This document shows, in pieces, positions 9,907 through 46,823 of a DNA stretch of 64,000 nucleotides. A model generated the notes under the pieces. The model did no database searches. It had not been told where the DNA came from and worked only from the letters and a program-made list of their open reading frames with translations. Source of the DNA: Candidatus Tiamatella sp. (lineage in GTDB: Archaea; Thermoproteota; Thermoprotei_A; Sulfolobales; Acidilobaceae); assembly GCA_015522645.1 (NCBI GenBank), contig WALV01000032.1:1-64000 (forward strand), written 5' to 3'. The position numbers and the translations under genes were made by a program. Each line of letters opens with the position of its first letter. Position 1 is the stretch's first letter.

Positions 9907-10179
9907 CTAGCCTCCGGCGCTTGGAGGAAATATGTCTACTTCATCTCCATCACTCAGCTCTTCATCTAGCTTTCTACATAGGAAAATATTCCTGCCGTTA
10001 ACTAGAATTATTGGATCATAGCCTTTTACCATGTATCTCTCAAGTTCGTTCTTTACTTCAGGCAGATAAATGAGTAAGCAATTGATGCTTCTGCAATTTT
10101 CATCCAATTCTATTACTCTTTCCTTCCACCCTAGCCGTATTCGTAACCCTGCATATATCCTGACTCTCACAGTGGGCAT
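9907..10179 (-). CDS. MoaD/ThiS-family sulfur carrier protein
   Basis: 90 residues from ATG 10179, which has GAGGGA nine bases upstream; an in-frame codon at 10206 has no such site and is rejected. Beta-grasp fold ending in the diagnostic SAGG, where the terminal glycine is thiocarboxylated for sulfur transfer to pterin precursors. The segment DELSDGDEVDIFPP is typical of MoaD. It overlaps the end of the radical SAM maturase by 13 bases and lies next to a tungstopterin enzyme, so a role in tungsten-pterin cofactor synthesis is likely. Confidence 0.88.
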   Translation of the reverse strand: MPTVRVRIYAGLRIRLGWKERVIELDENCRSINCLLIYLPEVKNELERYMVKGYDPIILVNGRNIFLCRKLDEELSDGDEVDIFPPSAGG

Positions 10180-11264
10180 CGTACCATATCCCTCGCGTAT
10201 GGGCAACTAGCACAACTCGGCTGATTCCCCCAGCAATCCATATCATTGGAGAGAGTAAGAGTACAATAGTCTCGTAGCGGGCAATCAGGGCAACTTGGGT
10301 AATACATGAAATCCAGGTTAAACTTATACTGCATGTACTCCTCAGAGTTCCAGACCTCTATCAAGCTTTCCTCCTTTAGATCCCCGAGAATAACGGCATT
10401 TATCGTCCTAGTTACCCTGTAAAACGTATTGGCCCACCCGTGAGCCATGTAAATGCAGGGTGCAACCTTACCATCCCACCTAACGAACAGAGCGTCTCTC
10501 GAGGCGAAAGGGCATTCTCTCTCGGTAGACAGGCCTAACTGTGGTAAACTTATGAGTATATTGTGAATCATGCTCAATTTAGCTAGGATACCGGATATTT
10601 CCGCTATTTTCCTTTTACACGAATCATCCATATAACAGGCCAACGATTTCTCCTGCCCTGGAGTTAATGGGAGAATATTGGATACGATGAATCGTGTTGC
10701 TTTCAGTTTTCCAGCGAGCTCTATGGTCTTTACCAGATTATCTACATTGAGTCTAGTTAGTGTAAACTGGATAATTATCTCGGGTTTCTTGACCATTTTC
10801 TCCCTTCTAAACTTGTTTATTTCCTCTAGTGCACTTAGGAGTCTAGAGAGATCCCCGCCTTTCCTGATGAGGGAATAAAGGTCGCTTTCACTGCTATCCA
10901 TGCTAACATAGAGCTCGTCGACTGACTCTTCCACCCAGCTCGTATTTTCTTTTAAAAAATATCCGTTGGTGTTTAATAGAACCTTTAATCCTAGATCCTT
11001 AGCTTTTCTAACGAAGTCTTTAATTTTAGGATGAAGCAACGGTTCACCCCAACCTGAGAAGATTATCTTCTCTACTCCCGCATGGTATGCTTCTTCCACG
11101 ATTTTATTATACAATTCCGGTTCCATGAATCCTTCAGGTTCCCTCATTAGGTTCCTGAAGCAGTAGATACACTTGTAATTGCACTTACTCGAAACTTCAA
11201 TCATGAGCTCCCGCGGATGACTATCATCTGAGGGTGTGATCTGCCATTTTTTTACCTTAAACAC
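10167..11264 (-). CDS. Radical SAM maturase of tungsten oxidoreductase type
   Basis: 365 residues. CNYKCIYC (C28, C32, C35) is the radical SAM cluster motif; the C-terminus has a SPASM-like set of cysteines (GKVAPC, YYPSCPDCPLRDYC, DCWGNQPSCASCPYARDMVRCPL). The combination with an adjacent MoaD-like gene and a divergent aldehyde ferredoxin oxidoreductase matches the tungsten-cofactor oxidoreductase radical SAM maturase family (described as TIGR04317, from memory). It is thought to help mature the W-bis-pterin enzyme; the exact reaction is not established. Confidence 0.85.
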   Translation of the reverse strand: MFKVKKWQITPSDDSHPRELMIEVSSKCNYKCIYCFRNLMREPEGFMEPELYNKIVEEAYHAGVEKIIFSGWGEPLLHPKIKDFVRKAKDLGLKVLLNTNGYFLKENTSWVEESVDELYVSMDSSESDLYSLIRKGGDLSRLLSALEEINKFRREKMVKKPEIIIQFTLTRLNVDNLVKTIELAGKLKATRFIVSNILPLTPGQEKSLACYMDDSCKRKIAEISGILAKLSMIHNILISLPQLGLSTERECPFASRDALFVRWDGKVAPCIYMAHGWANTFYRVTRTINAVILGDLKEESLIEVWNSEEYMQYKFNLDFMYYPSCPDCPLRDYCTLTLSNDMDCWGNQPSCASCPYARDMVRCPL

Positions 11265-11371
11265 TTTGAAAACACCAGTTGAGGATTGATTATAACTATT
11301 TATATTGTCGTCGCCAATATATGAAACAAGAATGAATTCGTTCTTATATCTTTTGGAGGAGTTGAAGCAAG
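11265..11371. promoter_or_regulatory. Divergent promoter region, W-maturase / AOR
   Basis: The 107-base space separates two divergent start codons and must hold both promoters. It contains the AT-rich run ATTATAACTATTTATATTG at about 11287-11305, a plausible TATA element. The AOR side carries the strong ribosome binding site GGAGGA at 11355-11360. Shared control of the enzyme and its maturase is inferred from the arrangement. Confidence 0.45.
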
Positions 11372-13261
11372 TTGCCTGGAGGATATATGGGTAAATTTCT
11401 TAGAGTGAATCTATGGAGTGGGAAACTCCGAGAGGAGACCATGCCCGACCACATTCTGAGAAAGTGGATCGGTGGTAGAGGTCTTGGAGTATATTTGGCA
11501 TTAAAGGAAATAGACCCTAAAGCCGACCCGTTGGGCCCTCGGAACAAGGTATTCATACTGACTGGTCCTGCGACGGGTGTGGCTGGAGTAACTGAATCCG
11601 GTAGATGGTGTAGTGTAACGAAGGCCCCTCTGACAAATACTGTTCATGACAGTCAGAGTGGAGGGAAATTCGGTCCTGAACTAAAATTCGCTGGATACGA
11701 TGGTGTGTTCATAGAAGATATGTCCGAGAAACCTGTTTACCTATGGATACATGATGGGAAAGCAGAGCTGAAAGACGCTAGTCATTTATGGGGACTGGAT
11801 GTTCACTCGACTACTGACAAAATCCAAGAGGAACTGGCGAGCGAGGTAGGAGAAAAGGAGGCGGGTAAAATAAAAGTAGCAGCCATAGGTCCGGCAGGCG
11901 AGAGGCTAGTCAAATTTGCCGCTATAATGAATGATAAAAACAGGGCAGCTGGGAGAGGAGGCCATGGTGCTGTACTGGGAAGTAAAAAACTTAAAGCCAT
12001 TGCAGTTCTGGGACACAAGGTCCCAAAGGTAGGTAAAATAGATCTCTTCAGGGAGGTAGTAAAAGAGACTGTGAAGAAGCATAAGGAGAACCCTGTTACA
12101 AGCGAGGGTTTACCTCAGCTTGGAACGGCTATACTGGTTAATATAATAAATCAGAACGGTCTGTTCCCGACTAGGAACTTTCAGTCAGGTTACTTCGAGG
12201 AAGCAGAGAAAATAAGTGGGGAAACACTAGCTGAAACATACCTGGATAAAAAGAAGAGCATTGAAGAAGCATGCTGGGGCTGTGCAATTGCATGCGCTAG
12301 ATATTCACGCGTAGGTAAGTCACCTTTCAGCGGTGAAGGGGGAGGACCGGAATATGAAACCATATGGGCTTTCGGTGCGCAAACCGGTAATGATAATTTT
12401 GAATCAATTATAAAGGCAAACTTCCTTGCAAATGAATTAGGCTTAGATACTATTTCAACAGGTAACACTATAGGAGCACTTTTCGAGCTTATAGAGAAAG
12501 GTAAATTCCCTAAGGAAAAGCTGAGAGGATTAAAAGCAGAGTGGGGTACTCCTGAAGCCGTAGTAGAGTTAACATGGAGAATAGCCTTTAGGAGCGGAGT
12601 AGGTGACGAGCTTGCAGAAGGATCATACAGGCTGGCGAGCAAGTATGGGGCACCAGAACTATCAATGAGCGTGAGAGGACAAGAATTACCTGCTTATGAC
12701 CCTAGAGGGGCACAAGGCCATGCTTTAGCATATGCAACTAGTAACAGAGGAGGCTGCCACCTGAGAGCTTACATGATAAGTCCTGAAGTTCTAGGAGTAC
12801 CAATGCTTGTGGATAGATTTGAAACTAAAGGCAAACCAGCGCTCGTAAAAGAATTCCAGGACGTATTCGGCGTAATTGATTCCATGGTTCTATGTAAGTT
12901 CAGTAGCTTCGCTCTATGGGATGAGGATTATGCTAAGATACTATCTGCAGTAACAGGCTGGGATATCAATAAGGAAGAAGTCCATGTAATAGGCGAGAGA
13001 ATATACAATGCCGAGAGAGCGTTCAATGCACTAAGCTTTGGCGATGGAGTGGAATACGATACTCTACCGCCGAGGTTCCTGAAGGAACCAATGCCTGAGG
13101 GCGCCAGTAAGGGTCAGGTAGTCAAGCTAGATGAGATGCTGCCGGAATACTATAAGCTTAGAGGCTGGATAAATGGAAGGCCTACTAGAGCCAAGCTGGA
13201 GGAACTAGGCCTTAAATGGATTGCTGATAGACTAGAGGAGGAAGGCCTTCTCCCTGGATGA
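11372..13261 (+). CDS. aor: Aldehyde ferredoxin oxidoreductase (tungsten)
   Basis: 629 residues. The N-terminus (GYMGKFLRVNL, GGRGLGVYL) and the pterin-contacting AGRGGHGAVLGSKKLKAI (193-210) are diagnostic of the AOR family. The [4Fe-4S] ligands are C301, C304 and C308 (CWGCAIAC) with C508 (MVLC), spaced as in Pyrococcus furiosus AOR. The enzyme oxidises aldehydes to acids with reduction of ferredoxin, in cytoplasmic peptide or sugar fermentation. The TTG start is chosen because GGAGGA lies 11 bases upstream and MPGGYMGK matches family N-termini. Substrate class (AOR, FOR, GAPOR, WOR) cannot be fixed here. Confidence 0.93.
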   Translation: MPGGYMGKFLRVNLWSGKLREETMPDHILRKWIGGRGLGVYLALKEIDPKADPLGPRNKVFILTGPATGVAGVTESGRWCSVTKAPLTNTVHDSQSGGKFGPELKFAGYDGVFIEDMSEKPVYLWIHDGKAELKDASHLWGLDVHSTTDKIQEELASEVGEKEAGKIKVAAIGPAGERLVKFAAIMNDKNRAAGRGGHGAVLGSKKLKAIAVLGHKVPKVGKIDLFREVVKETVKKHKENPVTSEGLPQLGTAILVNIINQNGLFPTRNFQSGYFEEAEKISGETLAETYLDKKKSIEEACWGCAIACARYSRVGKSPFSGEGGGPEYETIWAFGAQTGNDNFESIIKANFLANELGLDTISTGNTIGALFELIEKGKFPKEKLRGLKAEWGTPEAVVELTWRIAFRSGVGDELAEGSYRLASKYGAPELSMSVRGQELPAYDPRGAQGHALAYATSNRGGCHLRAYMISPEVLGVPMLVDRFETKGKPALVKEFQDVFGVIDSMVLCKFSSFALWDEDYAKILSAVTGWDINKEEVHVIGERIYNAERAFNALSFGDGVEYDTLPPRFLKEPMPEGASKGQVVKLDEMLPEYYKLRGWINGRPTRAKLEELGLKWIADRLEEEGLLPG

Positions 13262-13270
13262 ATACTTATT

Positions 13271-15277
13271 TCATTTCCCTATTAATCCTTTCCTATAGGC
13301 CTTCATCAACAACTCCAGTTTTTCTTGGTCCAACTTAGTAGACCCTAATTCGAGCCTCCTTCTCTTAATATCACGGAGCACTGAGTAGTCCAGGAATACT
13401 ATATAGTCTATTTTCAAAACATCTCCTTCTCCCACCATTATTACGGGCAAACCTTTATTTTCAGCTAAACTAGTAAATGAGGGTGCTCCGGTTACAACTA
13501 AGCCTTCTATTCCCCTTGATATAAGTAAGTCGATCCCCCTTGGATCATATGGGTCATTTTCTTTTACAACAATAATGGAATCCTCTGGAATCATACTACC
13601 AATGGTTTTTTCAAGGCTTTTAATCGAATCAACCGTTAATCTCTCAACTAGGAATCCTGCAATCTTGTCTCTGCTAATCAGGCCACTTATAGCACGAAGT
13701 AAAAGCGTATTTTCTTCTTCGGCGTTTGCCAGTAACGACTCTAGGGTATTCAGCCTTCCCTCCAAGCTATGAATCCTATTCCTATATTTTTCTACCTGAA
13801 TCTCATGCTCGACTTCCTTCTTTAGTTCCCGAATAGCATTCCTCTGAGTTTTTTTAAGGTACTCAAGTTCTTCATTCAGTTTCCTTACTTCACTCTCCAA
13901 TTTCCTCCGTGTATATAATAGGTAGTTGACACGCTCTCTGTATTCGGCAAGAGCAATATTGCATGATTCTTCCTGTATTTTTCTTTGACCATCAACAACA
14001 CTATTATCTCTTCTATTAATTGGTATGAGATCAGTGCCTATCTTTCTCTCGATCTCCTCCTCGACAGCCTCTGCTATCGTTTTACCCTTGACTATAGATT
14101 CCTTTATCTTATCTATATCAAGGTTTAATTTTCTTTTTGATACGTAGAGTTCGATTTGCTTGAACTTCTCGCTCAGCTCTTTATAAGCCTTGTATGCTGC
14201 AGCGAGAGCATCTCTTTGATGGGTATCAGCGTAATCGGGATAGACTTGGTTGGCCAGCGATCTTTTTTCAGTTGCCGAGAGGCTGGCTGGTGGAACATAT
14301 AGCTGGGTGTCAAACATTGATGATAGTTTTCTAGCGGTCTCAGGAGGAGGATTAACGTCGGTGGCGACAACGATAGGTTTACCTATATCTGATAATATGG
14401 ACGCTATTTTCGAACGATCCAAGTTTTTAGATGAATACAGATATAATAGGTTTCCCGAGATATCTAGGACTGCTAACCCTGTATATATTCCTGGGTCAAT
14501 GCCTACAATCACTGGTCTCTGGGAGAGAGTTATATCTCGGTCTCCTATGATGAGTTTCTGGCTATACAGCGGTGTTATCCTTATCCTGTAATCCCGACCA
14601 TCATAGGGCTTTATTAGACCGTATATCTTCTCCCTACCTGCATATACGGTAAATATAGCCGATTCCAGCCCTCCCTTACTTCTCCTATAGGATTCATCGT
14701 AATCTAAGCCTGCTTTATCCAGTGTTTCCTTTATTTTCTGAGCTACCTGGCTAATGATGCTGTTCAGCCTCCTCTGGTACCTTGCTTGGCTCCATCCGCC
14801 TTTAGATCCCCCTCTCGACTTTGATACTGTTATACGTGTTTTTTCCTCCCTTAACCGGACTTGGCCTCCTATGCCTTTTTCAGCCAAGAGTGCTGCTATG
14901 TAGGCTGTTTTACCCGGAGATAGCTTACCGGAATGCATTAAAACACCGTATTTTTCAGCTACTGTTTTTATAGGTATGAACTTACCGTTGTCATAGGTTA
15001 CTTGTATAAGTTTTGCTTCTGGTGGGAGTAAAGACAGTATCCTGGCTATTCCATGTTCTGTTGGCGCGAGCTCATATACATTGTCTATTCCTATAGAAGC
15101 AACGTTATACTCCCACGCAAGCCGTATAATCCTAGGTAGAGTTGCTTCCTCATTCTTATATAATACCCGTTTGCTAGAGTCAATGATTATGATCGAGTAT
15201 CTCGGTTTGTAAGCTGAGGAAGGACTGCTTCCGGGATTTATATCTATACCCATATAACTAGGCTTTTTTTCGAGCAT
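13271..15277 (-). CDS. DUF460 RNase H-like protein with release-factor-like GGWSQ loop
   Basis: 668 residues. Two RNase H-like units are visible: MGIDINPGSSPSS (9-21) at the N-terminus and VGIDPGIYTGLAVLD (258-272), as in archaeal COG2433/DUF460 proteins. Between them, KSRGGSKGGWSQARYQRR (153-170) followed by a long helix closely resembles the catalytic loop of Vms1-like release factors (VLRF1). A coiled coil spans about 440-520 (LRKLNEELEYLKKTQRN region), followed by a C-terminal alpha/beta domain. The start codon shares one base with the RIO2 stop (TGATG), so the two are coupled. Function is unproven; RNA or peptidyl-tRNA cleavage on ribosomes is inference. Confidence 0.8.
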   Translation of the reverse strand: MLEKKPSYMGIDINPGSSPSSAYKPRYSIIIIDSSKRVLYKNEEATLPRIIRLAWEYNVASIGIDNVYELAPTEHGIARILSLLPPEAKLIQVTYDNGKFIPIKTVAEKYGVLMHSGKLSPGKTAYIAALLAEKGIGGQVRLREEKTRITVSKSRGGSKGGWSQARYQRRLNSIISQVAQKIKETLDKAGLDYDESYRRSKGGLESAIFTVYAGREKIYGLIKPYDGRDYRIRITPLYSQKLIIGDRDITLSQRPVIVGIDPGIYTGLAVLDISGNLLYLYSSKNLDRSKIASILSDIGKPIVVATDVNPPPETARKLSSMFDTQLYVPPASLSATEKRSLANQVYPDYADTHQRDALAAAYKAYKELSEKFKQIELYVSKRKLNLDIDKIKESIVKGKTIAEAVEEEIERKIGTDLIPINRRDNSVVDGQRKIQEESCNIALAEYRERVNYLLYTRRKLESEVRKLNEELEYLKKTQRNAIRELKKEVEHEIQVEKYRNRIHSLEGRLNTLESLLANAEEENTLLLRAISGLISRDKIAGFLVERLTVDSIKSLEKTIGSMIPEDSIIVVKENDPYDPRGIDLLISRGIEGLVVTGAPSFTSLAENKGLPVIMVGEGDVLKIDYIVFLDYSVLRDIKRRRLELGSTKLDQEKLELLMKAYRKGLIGK

Positions 15278-16167
15278 CAGATCCCTCCCTTTATTTCCTC
15301 TAGGATCCTCTCCGGATCCACTTCAATTTTGAATTTCTTGTTGAAGAATCTTATTATGTAATACACGTCTCTTCTCAGGAGCTCATCTGCTATTGGGTCT
15401 TCCTTGTAGACGTACTGTGGCCAGTCAATTATGAATGGTTCACCTTCCGTTGAGATAAGTATATTATATTCACTAAGGTCTCCATGGACTATCCCTGCTT
15501 TAATATAGGCGATATGTATTGTGCTAACTATATCGGCTAGAATCTTCACAGGGTTATCTAGACCGTTACTGGGAATAGTATATAGCTCTACGCCTTCTAT
15601 ATATTCTTGCACCACCGCATGCCTGTTGTAATCTATTGGTTTAGGAACCAGTGCTCCAAACTTGTATAGCGCGTCAAGAGCCTTGAATTCTCTCTCACCT
15701 ATAAGTTTAGCCTTTAGTATCCATTGCTTTCTCGTGGATTCAGCCATGTATATCCTTGTTTTTCTCACATTCTTGAATGACCTGACTCCTTCCCTATGAA
15801 ATTTTAGGACAAGCCTTATTCCAGTAGGAGACAGTGCATCATAGACCTCACTTTCCTTTCCAACGCCTATCTTAGGACCCAACTCCGATACAGTACCCCG
15901 AGCTACTAGTGCCCTTAAAGCTAGGAGATCCAGCGCTTGGAAAGTAAGAGTATACCCCATAAGCTGGTGCTTTCCTTTCTTAATGAGCTTCAGTTCAACA
16001 AGTCTCTCAAGGGCCCTCCTGAAGCTTCCGGGTGGTAGCTTGGACCTTCTTTCAACCAGTTCGATTGGCGGGTACTCGTATTTCGAGAGAAGAGATTCTA
16101 TTGCTCTTAGAATTCTAAACATGTGATTATCCGTTTTATTGTAAAGCTCAGCTAACTGTGAAACCAT
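15277..16167 (-). CDS. rio2: RIO2-type serine/threonine kinase
   Basis: 296 residues. An N-terminal winged helix (1-~90) precedes a RIO kinase domain: nucleotide loop GVGKESEVY (101-109), Lys122 in LVLKFHREG, catalytic VHGDLSEYNILI (HGDLSEYN 228-235) and metal-binding IDWPQ (247-251). The winged helix and IDWPQ identify RIO2 rather than RIO1. RIO2 acts as an ATPase in late small-subunit maturation. It is the first gene of a two-gene minus-strand operon with the DUF460 protein. Confidence 0.95.
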   Translation of the reverse strand: MVSQLAELYNKTDNHMFRILRAIESLLSKYEYPPIELVERRSKLPPGSFRRALERLVELKLIKKGKHQLMGYTLTFQALDLLALRALVARGTVSELGPKIGVGKESEVYDALSPTGIRLVLKFHREGVRSFKNVRKTRIYMAESTRKQWILKAKLIGEREFKALDALYKFGALVPKPIDYNRHAVVQEYIEGVELYTIPSNGLDNPVKILADIVSTIHIAYIKAGIVHGDLSEYNILISTEGEPFIIDWPQYVYKEDPIADELLRRDVYYIIRFFNKKFKIEVDPERILEEIKGGI

Positions 16168-18757: not shown

Positions 18758-20761
18758 TTGGCTAAGGATACAATGTCAGTGATCGATATTACCGCTTGGG
18801 TTAAGACCACAGGCAGAAACATCGTAGAAACCTCTAGGGTTGCCAATATCTATAGAGCGGAGAATCTGTTCCTATTTAAGCTTCATACCAAAATCGCTGG
18901 CCGCGAAATCTTAGTGGTAGAACCGGGGAAACGTATACACTTCTCTAAAAGCGTTTCTACTCCAAAAGAGTTCAAGCAGGACAGTGTTCTTTTAGCGCTC
19001 AGGAAATATGTAAGAGGGGGGATTATTAGGTCAGTTCAACAGGTAAACAATGATAGAATAGTGTCATTAAACGTAAAAGATCATGTTGTAATCGTTGAAC
19101 TAATGAAGAAAGGTATACTCGCGTTGCTAGATGAAGATGGAAGGATCACTGTCGCGACAGAGTATAGGAGAATGAGAGATAGGATCATACGACCGAAAGA
19201 GCACTATCTACCTCCACCAAACAAAAACCCGCTGATTCCAGAGCTATCCGTAGATGAACTCAAAAGTAGACTGATGAATGGCCTAGACCTTGTAAGGGGA
19301 CTTGTCCGGGGATTAGGGCTTCCCGGGGAATTTGTGGAGGAAGTTATTTACCGGTCTAGACTAAATAAGAATACTAAGCCTTCTGAACTACATGATTATA
19401 ACATTGAGGTATTATACAATAAAATCACCGAACTATACGAAGAAGCTCTCCAGGGAAAAGGCTACGTGGTATACCAGGATAATACTCCTATTCTTGCTGT
19501 AAGTTTTAAGCCAACTATACATATAGACAATGGATTAAGGATTGAATACTATGATACATTCGACGACGCTCTCGATATCTTATACAGTAGCAGGAGGAGA
19601 GAGCTAGGTGGGCTTGAGAAAATTCTGGACGAGGAAACGGGTAGGGTATTAGCTAGCATAGAGCAACATAAGAAATTGATGGAAAAATACAATAGTAAGT
19701 CGGCTGAACTCAGGGAACAAGCAATATTCATATCCCAGCAATACGCCAAGTTTGAAAAAATCCTCGAATATCTAAGAAAGATAAAAGAGGAAGAAGGCTG
19801 GAATGGTGTAAGAAACCTTGACTGGATAGTTTCAGTCGATACATCCACAGGAGACGTTACTGTATTAGTCAAGGAGAGGAAGATCAAACTCAATATCAGG
19901 AAACCATTAGATGAGGTGTTGAATGAGATGTACAAACTTGCAGGCGAATTAGAAGGAAAAGCTAGGCGAGCACAGAAGTCGCTCAAAGACCTAGAAAAAA
20001 TGCTTATAGATGCCAAAAAGAGAGCTGTAAGAAGGTTTCTTAGAGATTTCTATAGGAGCAGGAGAAAAGCATGGTACGAGAAATATGTTTGGGGTATAAC
20101 CAGGAATGGTTTTCTCGTCATAGCCGGTAAAAACGCGGATCAGAACGAGAGTATAGTAAAGAGATACCTGGAAGACAGTGATGTTTTCCTGCACGCTGAT
20201 ATTCATGGTGCTCCAGCAACCATATTGAAGACGGGAGGCATTGAGCCAGCTAGTGAGGACATATGGGATGCTGCAGTTATAGCTGCCTCATACAGTAGAG
20301 CATGGAAAGCTGGTGCAGGCTATGTTGGCGTTTTCTGGGTAAAGGGTTCCCAAGTATCTAAGTCTCCACCTGCAGGTGAATACGTATCGAAGGGAGCATT
20401 CATGATCTATGGGAAGAAAAATTATGTAAGGGGAGTTAGATTATCTCTAGCACTGGGCTTGGAACCTGTTGACGATAGGTCTCTGAGAGTTCTGGTTGGA
20501 AGCAATGAATCTGTATCAGTGAGATCATGGGTATATGCCTCCATGGTTCCAGGCGATACCCCTGTGAACAAGTTCCCTGAGACATTCAAACGAGCTGCCT
20601 GTAAGCTAGTCGGTATCGGATGTCTTATTGTAGAATCTTATCCAAGCGAGGAATTAATTGAGAGACTTCCGGGGAGATTAGGGAGAGTGAAAGTATTATT
20701 GGGAAGGGAGAGTTACAGTCCCCCATTCAATACCCATCTTCTCAATGATTTGTATGTGTAA
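18758..20761 (+). CDS. rqcH: Rqc2/NEMF/RqcH-family ribosome quality control protein
   Basis: 667 residues. The NFACT-N domain carries the Asp-Arg pair D99-R100 (VNNDRIV) required for tRNA handling in RqcH. A helix-hairpin-helix and a long coiled coil follow (about 320-420), and the NFACT-R/DUF814 domain (WYEKYVWGITRNGFLVIAG, HADIHGAPATI) lies at 445-570. These proteins bind peptidyl-tRNA on split large subunits and add C-terminal tails in bacteria and eukaryotes. The TTG start is preceded by GGTGTAGGAGA; ATG 18773 is an alternative. Confidence 0.92.
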   Translation: MAKDTMSVIDITAWVKTTGRNIVETSRVANIYRAENLFLFKLHTKIAGREILVVEPGKRIHFSKSVSTPKEFKQDSVLLALRKYVRGGIIRSVQQVNNDRIVSLNVKDHVVIVELMKKGILALLDEDGRITVATEYRRMRDRIIRPKEHYLPPPNKNPLIPELSVDELKSRLMNGLDLVRGLVRGLGLPGEFVEEVIYRSRLNKNTKPSELHDYNIEVLYNKITELYEEALQGKGYVVYQDNTPILAVSFKPTIHIDNGLRIEYYDTFDDALDILYSSRRRELGGLEKILDEETGRVLASIEQHKKLMEKYNSKSAELREQAIFISQQYAKFEKILEYLRKIKEEEGWNGVRNLDWIVSVDTSTGDVTVLVKERKIKLNIRKPLDEVLNEMYKLAGELEGKARRAQKSLKDLEKMLIDAKKRAVRRFLRDFYRSRRKAWYEKYVWGITRNGFLVIAGKNADQNESIVKRYLEDSDVFLHADIHGAPATILKTGGIEPASEDIWDAAVIAASYSRAWKAGAGYVGVFWVKGSQVSKSPPAGEYVSKGAFMIYGKKNYVRGVRLSLALGLEPVDDRSLRVLVGSNESVSVRSWVYASMVPGDTPVNKFPETFKRAACKLVGIGCLIVESYPSEELIERLPGRLGRVKVLLGRESYSPPFNTHLLNDLYV

Positions 20762-46728: not shown

Positions 46729-46823
46729 TGGAGCCGCCGGCGGGACTTGAACCCGCGACCACCGGCTTACAAGGCCGGCGCTTGCGGCCCCGCGCAGGGG
46801 TCTACCGGCTGAGCTACGGCGGC
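46729..46823 (-). tRNA. tRNA-Thr (TGT anticodon) with D-arm intron
   Basis: On the minus strand: acceptor GCCGCCG/CGGCGGC, D stem GCTC/GAGC, anticodon stem CCGGC/GCCGG with loop CTTGTAA, T arm GCGGG-TTCAAGT-CCCGC, discriminator T and encoded CCA (46729-46731). Anticodon TGT is at 46769-46771. The D stem forms only after removing 19 bases (46782-46800). U73 and G1-C72 fit archaeal tRNA-Thr. Confidence 0.92.
46782..46800 (-). other. tRNA-Thr intron in the D arm (19 nt, noncanonical)
   Basis: Reads CCCCTGCGCGGGGCCGCAA on the minus strand, with an internal CCCC/GGGG helix. Excision after position 22 or 23 rejoins GGTAGA with GCG to give a normal four-pair D stem and a 73-base tRNA. The exact boundary can shift by one base because of the flanking A. 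Confidence 0.8.

Follow-up and report, generated by a model that had tools for sequence, protein, structure and literature searches.

The window, that is, the whole stretch of 64,000 nucleotides of Candidatus Tiamatella sp. DNA that was analyzed, contains a gene for a 668-residue protein that matches Pfam DUF460 (PF04312) at an E-value of 6.3e-42 and 142.9 bits (cut-off 28) and is thus a member of this family, which corresponds to COG2433. The gene, the parts of its product and two neighboring genes are arranged as follows.

13271..15277, minus strand: whole gene of the COG2433/DUF460 protein, 668 aa (open reading frame and Pfam)
14873..15277, minus strand: N-terminal RNase H-like unit, residues 1-135 (residue conservation, AlphaFold2 model, profile match to DUF460)
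14564..14866, minus strand: GG domain, residues 138-238, predicted beta-loop-alpha-beta-beta-alpha-beta and uS10-like (AlphaFold2 model of the domain alone; VIA-align match to uS10)
14768..14821, minus strand: GG loop KSRGGSKGGWSQARYQRR, residues 153-170, with invariant G160, G161, S163, R166 and R169 (sequence and conservation counts)
14162..14518, minus strand: DUF460 RNase H-like unit, residues 254-372, with RuvC-type layout (Pfam, conservation, model and VIA-align)
13676..13975, minus strand: long coiled coil, residues 435-534, predicted (AlphaFold2 model)
13343..13666, minus strand: C-terminal alpha/beta domain, residues 538-645, predicted (AlphaFold2 model)
15277..16167, minus strand: RIO2 kinase gene, directly upstream with a one-base overlap (Pfam Rio2_N 1.2e-17, RIO1 3.9e-48)
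18758..20761, plus strand: NFACT (Rqc2/NEMF-like) gene, 3481 bp from the COG2433 gene (Pfam)

A preliminary description of this locus had placed a release-factor-like loop between two RNase H-like units and near a coiled coil, and this layout stands, with the DUF460 match, the profile match of the N-terminal unit (P 8e-6) and the predicted coiled coil at residues 435-534. Pfam matched no stop-codon or Pelota domain in the protein and no family at E <= 0.01 in the C-terminal domain. This last domain is common to long and short COG2433 forms, and four (L098, L122, L123, L124) of the 13 sequences inspected carry a D[AP]SGGG stretch in it. Searches for solved relatives in the PDB gave nothing better than E 0.16 with the whole protein as a single sequence and nothing better than E 0.22 with the DUF460 unit alone, while the best 60 of 507 matches to a whole-protein profile all lay in the coiled-coil part (residues 400-589). 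No relatives were found in one scan of the viral_contigs collection or when the plasmid collection was searched at the protein level.

Conservation and gene context were examined in a sample of 200 genomes of Thermoproteota, and DUF460 regions were taken from 99 other genomes with matches above the Pfam cut-off, leaving out eleven genomes with matches below it only. The 90 full-length proteins used for residue counts are those of the loci of these 99 genomes together with the window and two further loci (L002, L003), after removal of the 11 short forms and of a truncated copy (L096), in which a contig end cuts the gene before the loop. All counts refer to Thermoproteota; DUF460 was also matched in Haloferax and Methanosarcina, which gave no loci. 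For work with Pfam and profiles, 31 GG domains less than 62% identical were chosen.

The DUF460 unit keeps a predicted RuvC-type active site. D261, D307, H353 and D356 are each present in 90/90 proteins, and the AlphaFold2 model puts D261, D307 and D356 on strands 1 and 4 and on the last helix. The top structural match of the model of residues 254-372 is RuvC (Z 11.5 in VIA-align, which was used as a second look at Foldseek matches), with which DUF460 shares acids at beta1 and beta4 and a His and an Asp on alpha3. A passage in PMC9601230 places the RuvC residues on beta1, beta4 and alpha3 and gives His as the identity of the fourth residue in two of the RuvC proteins. By contrast, in YqgF/RuvX, although it is likewise RNase H-like, the second acid lies at beta5 and alpha3 carries a single residue. 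Unlike RuvC, COG2433 is a multidomain protein with RIO2 as a neighbor and a putative function. The suggestion in the preliminary description that the protein might cut RNA gains from the invariance of the active-site residues. The N-terminal unit gave no Pfam match at E <= 0.1 and is related to DUF460 by profile comparison over 51 columns, with a score of 36.7, compared with no more than 19.5 in 60 shuffles. It retains D12 (89/90), D65 (90/90) and E69 (90/90), no acid in its last helix (residues 117-135) is conserved above 80% in the 90 proteins, and its nuclease site is likely degenerate or incomplete.

AlphaFold2 predicts a helix (residues 164-188) directly after the GG loop. G160, G161, S163, R166 and R169 are each found in 90/90 proteins, and position 167 is aromatic in all except one (Y 59, F 30, L 1). 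Glycine or small residues in the loop and an Arg in the helix after it, as in the VLRF-1/aeRF-1 superfamily, are present throughout. The remaining positions vary: position 162 is M in 74, S in 6, W in 5, Q in 4 and Y in 1 protein, and position 164 is R in 30, S in 19, Q in 18, A in 10 and E in 5, plus others. When conservation of the loop is followed across COG2433, as the preliminary description had proposed, the two Gly, the Ser and both Arg hold, whereas the Gln is kept in 18/90 proteins. Gln is present at either 162 or 164 in 22/90 proteins and in neither register in 68/90, and we rejected a catalytic Gln, which active members of the VLRF-1/aeRF-1 superfamily conserve, as a family-wide feature. 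In domain 2 of aRF1/eRF1 (PF03464), the GGxSxxR[FY]xR loop is likewise followed by a basic helix and aligns with that of COG2433 ungapped; in this alignment (aRF1 GGQSQRRFDR, window GGWSQARYQR), however, W162 and not Q164 lies opposite the catalytic Gln, the position that is Met in most of COG2433. Q164 of the window fits instead the GGxSQ register, which section 2.3 of PMC6514570 states as the motif of aVLRF-1 and acVLRF-1. The acVLRF1/VLRF-1 clade (PF18859) shares GGxSQ and an Arg in the following helix with the window's own family, in which (43 genomes matched) the 30 loci listed all have GGxS, followed by Gln at position 164 in 28 and by Glu in 2. COG2433 at large differs from this clade in that its Gln is not conserved, and the full-length score of the window protein is below the cut-off. 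As the Gln is not conserved, a catalytic reading is unsupported for COG2433 as a whole. An activity confined to the window's own family may exist, since GGxSQ is kept there. Separately, the GG loop of four members of another family, f25 (L054, L062, L065, L071), reads GGQS, for instance GGQSRRRFERN, the exact release-factor GGQ in a family with mostly Met at that position.

The resemblance of the loop and the following helix to release factors, noted from the start, is confirmed and goes beyond chance at the level of sequence. Pfam acVLRF1 (cut-off 27.1) matches residues 144-187 at E 1.5e-5 and 25.7 bits when residues 1-192 are searched, scores just above the cut-off with residues 134-243 alone (E 4.1e-6, 27.5 bits) and stays below it with the full-length protein (24.3 bits), spanning profile positions 30-69 of 130; the NCBIfam acVLRF1 model matches residues 1-192 weakly (E 0.084). 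Among the 31 GG domains, a Pfam scan at E <= 0.01 found acVLRF1 in eight, eRF1_2 in one and baeRF_family10 in one, all of the aeRF1 superfamily, and no family outside it. Profile-profile comparison with 38 aRF1 domains 2 gave P 6.6e-6 for 55 columns that take in the strand, the loop and the helix. The score was 37.1, whereas 60 column shuffles did not exceed 18.2 and the reversed profile scored 18.5; the N-terminal and DUF460 units, compared with the same aRF1 domains, gave P 0.33 and 0.29, respectively. When the profile of the 31 GG domains was run against PDB sequences, the archaeal aRF1 3agk came first, weakly (E 0.014), with a tryptophanyl-tRNA synthetase close behind (E 0.019).

Forty whole genomes of the order were also searched with the GG profile. 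COG2433 was found in 39 of them (not in G257), an aRF1-like ORF was matched weakly in 37 (E 5e-4 to 0.38), and the best match outside COG2433 was aRF1 or an aRF1-sized ORF in 36, the exceptions being G060, with a better-scoring other ORF, and G028, G036 and G067, with no aRF1-like match. Twenty-three of these 37 ORFs were confirmed as aRF1 by overlapping searches and 14 were assigned from their length of 367-417 aa. With one exception (G095, columns 4-44), the aRF1 matches lie within columns 24-58 of the profile. Similarly, 15 of the 20 COG2433 matches to acVLRF1 fall within positions 33-72 of 130, and five are longer (G000 24-69, G012 38-85, G207 38-91, G214 33-94, G216 6-68), while aRF1 itself spans up to positions 3-127 of the same model. 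Because the similarity mostly ends after the loop and helix 1, an aeRF1 domain is not proven, and we treat the likeness in sequence as limited to this fragment, whether it arose convergently or the fragment has a common ancestry.

The GG loop is tentatively predicted to sit in a separate uS10-like domain and not in an RNase H domain of the eRF1 type. AlphaFold2 models from a three-sequence alignment had a mean pLDDT of 68.9 and a pTM of 0.32 for the whole protein and a pLDDT of 80.5 and a pTM of 0.71 for residues 134-250 alone, with block means of 88-95 from residue 164 to 233 in the GG-domain model. Both models have the order beta-loop-alpha-beta-beta-alpha-beta at residues 146-237, with a further short strand at 138-142 in the whole-protein model. 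Burial of the segment in the RNase H fold, named at the outset as an outcome that would speak against the idea of a release-factor-like loop, is not predicted. In VLRF-1/aeRF-1 proteins the loop connects strand 3 to helix 1 within an L18/S11-type RNase H domain, and COG2433 matches aRF1/eRF1 only in strand, loop and helix 1. In VIA-align, uS10 chains came first for the GG-domain model (8rxh_SM, Z 10.0, 77 aligned residues, 2.5 A), followed by class-I bacterial release factors with Z up to 9.4. The latter rows mostly cover RF1/RF2 residues 104-235, which we take to be the domain that reads the codon rather than the GGQ domain, and two RF1 rows extend to residue 281. In Foldseek, no match reached E <= 1e-3; the first row was PrfH, a release-factor relative, at 3.4e-3 and the second an archaeal ribosome chain at 5.0e-3. 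Chains of eRF1, Pelota or Vms1 were absent from the best 50 VIA-align matches in either list and from the Foldseek matches listed, which does not prove that the fold is different. We use uS10-like as a description and make no claim of ancestry, because this ferredoxin-like fold is common. In Rps20 (uS10), moreover, the loop joins two strands, whereas the GG loop joins beta1 and alpha1. Homology to uS10 by sequence is not claimed either (P 0.022, a score reached by 1 of 60 shuffles), and Ribosomal_S10 (PF00338) gave no Pfam match at E <= 0.01 in the 31 GG domains.

The coupling to RIO2 that had been described in the window recurs: at 66/101 loci the kinase gene is found at most 600 nt upstream in the same orientation, corresponding to 64/99 genomes and 15/22 families. 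RIO2 was not found adjoining in 35/99 genomes, including 19/19 of family f10; contig ends truncate some of the regions concerned. Between RIO2 and the NFACT gene lie an ArsR-type regulator, CTP synthase and a 106-aa ORF; the described distance of 3.5 kb from COG2433 to this gene is correct, whereas its recurrence as a neighbor is weak (26/101 loci within the fetched regions). Downstream, a convergent S-adenosylmethionine synthetase gene is present in 83/99 regions (a cluster with one member confirmed by Pfam), in place of which the window has an aldehyde ferredoxin oxidoreductase gene (11372..13261). Because the synthetase gene is in the region even more often than RIO2 is, synteny alone is weak. 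The short COG2433 forms (L122-L132, 11/99) lack both the N-terminal unit and the GG domain and consist, by eye, only of DUF460, coiled coil and C-terminal domain. Five of the 11 adjoin RIO2, and therefore the RIO2 link belongs to the DUF460 half and does not need the loop. A search for the GG domain as a separate protein gave no full-length match in the 11 short-form genomes; six of them gave only partial hits, in ORFs of 429-490 aa that are taken to be aRF1, and one other partial hit was seen. In the six genomes with no DUF460 match, no GG domain was found except for a partial match in G013, where a 374-aa ORF (L263) matches profile columns 13-65 at E 0.0017 and could be aRF1 or a paralogue.

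Based on the observed domain order, the invariant loop and RuvC-type residues, the local similarity to aRF1, the frequent lack of the Gln and the recurrence of RIO2, together with the predicted folds, we tentatively suggest that COG2433 is a RIO2-coupled archaeal nuclease of rRNA or pre-ribosomes, whose GG loop binds rRNA without hydrolyzing peptidyl-tRNA. This reading is the most likely one, since the nuclease site is kept, RIO2 adjoins and the loop mostly lacks Gln. In this model, COG2433 and RIO2 would act jointly on ribosomal RNA or pre-ribosomes, with cutting done by the DUF460 unit through a metal-dependent mechanism of the RuvC type. The N-terminal unit, as a partly degraded copy, would support or orient the DUF460 unit, and the coiled coil would dimerize the protein. 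The GG loop and the Arg-rich helix of the uS10-like domain would dock on rRNA as the GGQ loop and helix of aRF1 do and, mostly without the catalytic Gln, the loop would serve as an anchor or probe and not in hydrolysis. We infer the rRNA substrate, the docking, the dimerization and a pathway of pre-rRNA processing or decay from these features. RIO2 works on the small subunit and the aRF1 loop on the large one, and RuvC itself cuts DNA; both points count against this reading. Precedents come from two papers, in which a loop of yeast Rps20 (uS10) is described to stimulate the ATPase of Rio2 and the release of this kinase (PMC6588571) and the RNase H-like YqgF of E. coli to process pre-16S rRNA (PMC9601230). 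They make the rRNA idea testable, and neither is evidence for COG2433.

The main rival to an rRNA nuclease is a DNA structure-specific nuclease. COG2433 would then be a RuvC-like endonuclease in repair or recombination, its GG loop would bind DNA phosphates, and the likeness to aRF1 would be convergent. RuvC is the closest fold to DUF460, the acids and the His follow the RuvC layout, and a passage in Majorek 2014 (PMC3985635) finds DUF460 similar to Holliday junction resolvases; the recurrent RIO2 neighbor and the local similarity to the aeRF1 superfamily, however, point to ribosomes, and we regard a DNA nuclease as unlikely, if well worth considering. The RIO2 neighbor, and a GG loop kept mostly without Gln, would also suit a non-catalytic factor of ribosome assembly or hibernation in which the RNase H units are scaffolds; the RuvC-type residues of DUF460, invariant in 90/90 proteins, argue against it, and we give it only a small chance.

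Two further explanations take the release-factor likeness at closer to face value. The GG domain might genuinely belong to the aeRF1 superfamily as a diverged member that binds the A site without a Gln, as do Dom34 and Balon, with the uS10-like fold an artefact of the three-sequence alignment. The aRF1 profile match over 55 columns, the restriction of Pfam matches to aeRF1 families and PrfH as the top Foldseek row (only E 3.4e-3) are in its favor, and Balon is a precedent without GGQ in the excerpted text of PMC10901736. Set against this are the high pLDDT over residues 164-233, the same beta-alpha-beta-beta-alpha-beta order in both models, and helix 1 as the end of most acVLRF1 matches and of all aRF1 matches in the 40-genome search, and we consider it rather improbable. 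Balon/baeRF-1 proteins are release-factor-like without GGQ, a motif that most COG2433 proteins also lack, and Balon is reported to bind ribosomes; they differ from COG2433 in having a domain organization of the aeRF1 type, with no nuclease units described in that excerpt. A ribosome-rescue enzyme that hydrolyzes peptidyl-tRNA as Vms1 does, with catalysis by Q164, would account for the acVLRF1 match of the window protein and of the GG domains, for the GGxSQ motif given for aVLRF-1/acVLRF-1 in section 2.3 of PMC6514570 and kept in 28/30 own-family loci listed, and for GGQS in four other members (4/90). Across the phylum, however, most proteins lack Gln in both registers; in the window protein, W162 occupies the aRF1 Gln position, similarity mostly ends after the loop and helix 1, and the predicted scaffold is a different one. 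Peptidyl-tRNA cleavage, as put forward in the preliminary description, is therefore not upheld as the family function, and we judge such a hydrolase very unlikely.

To our knowledge, no defined nuclease of rRNA decay or subunit quality control is known in Archaea, and COG2433, which is widespread and often follows RIO2, is a direct candidate. A more specific version of the rRNA nuclease, to which we attach slim likelihood, is a quality-control enzyme in which the uS10-like domain would put the Met-for-Gln loop into the A site or peptidyl transferase center, or would replace uS10 beside RIO2, to test new or stalled ribosomes, while the RuvC-type unit would cut the rRNA of those that fail. If true, an aRF1-type loop on a different scaffold would be coupled to RNA cleavage. 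The family also raises the question of whether a release-factor loop was reproduced on an unrelated scaffold, with the RNA-gripping residues kept and the catalytic one dropped. The residues to alter are G160, G161, S163, R166 and R169 in the loop and D261, D307, H353 and D356 in the DUF460 unit.

In the portion of Majorek 2014 (PMC3985635) that treats COG2433, an RNase H-like domain is the only domain detected and the family is called solely archaeal; new here are an additional RNase H-like unit at the N-terminus and the GG domain. COG2433 is mentioned once in PMC1852104, which deals with proteins distinctive of Archaea, and is absent from the main text of Burroughs and Aravind 2019 (PMC6514570), and the excerpt of the ribosome biogenesis factor paper PMC3919561 has nothing on the gene. 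In open-licence full-text literature on DUF460, COG2433 or PF04312, Majorek 2014 was the one paper found to treat the family, and no description of the GG domain was found.

Two other features of the window are recorded here. At 46729-46823, ARAGORN finds a tRNA with the anticodon given as gg and no amino acid assigned, which perhaps contains an intron. At 9907-13261, a ThiS/MoaD-like small ORF (by eye), a SPASM radical SAM gene and the aldehyde ferredoxin oxidoreductase gene lie side by side and probably form a tungsten-enzyme cluster.
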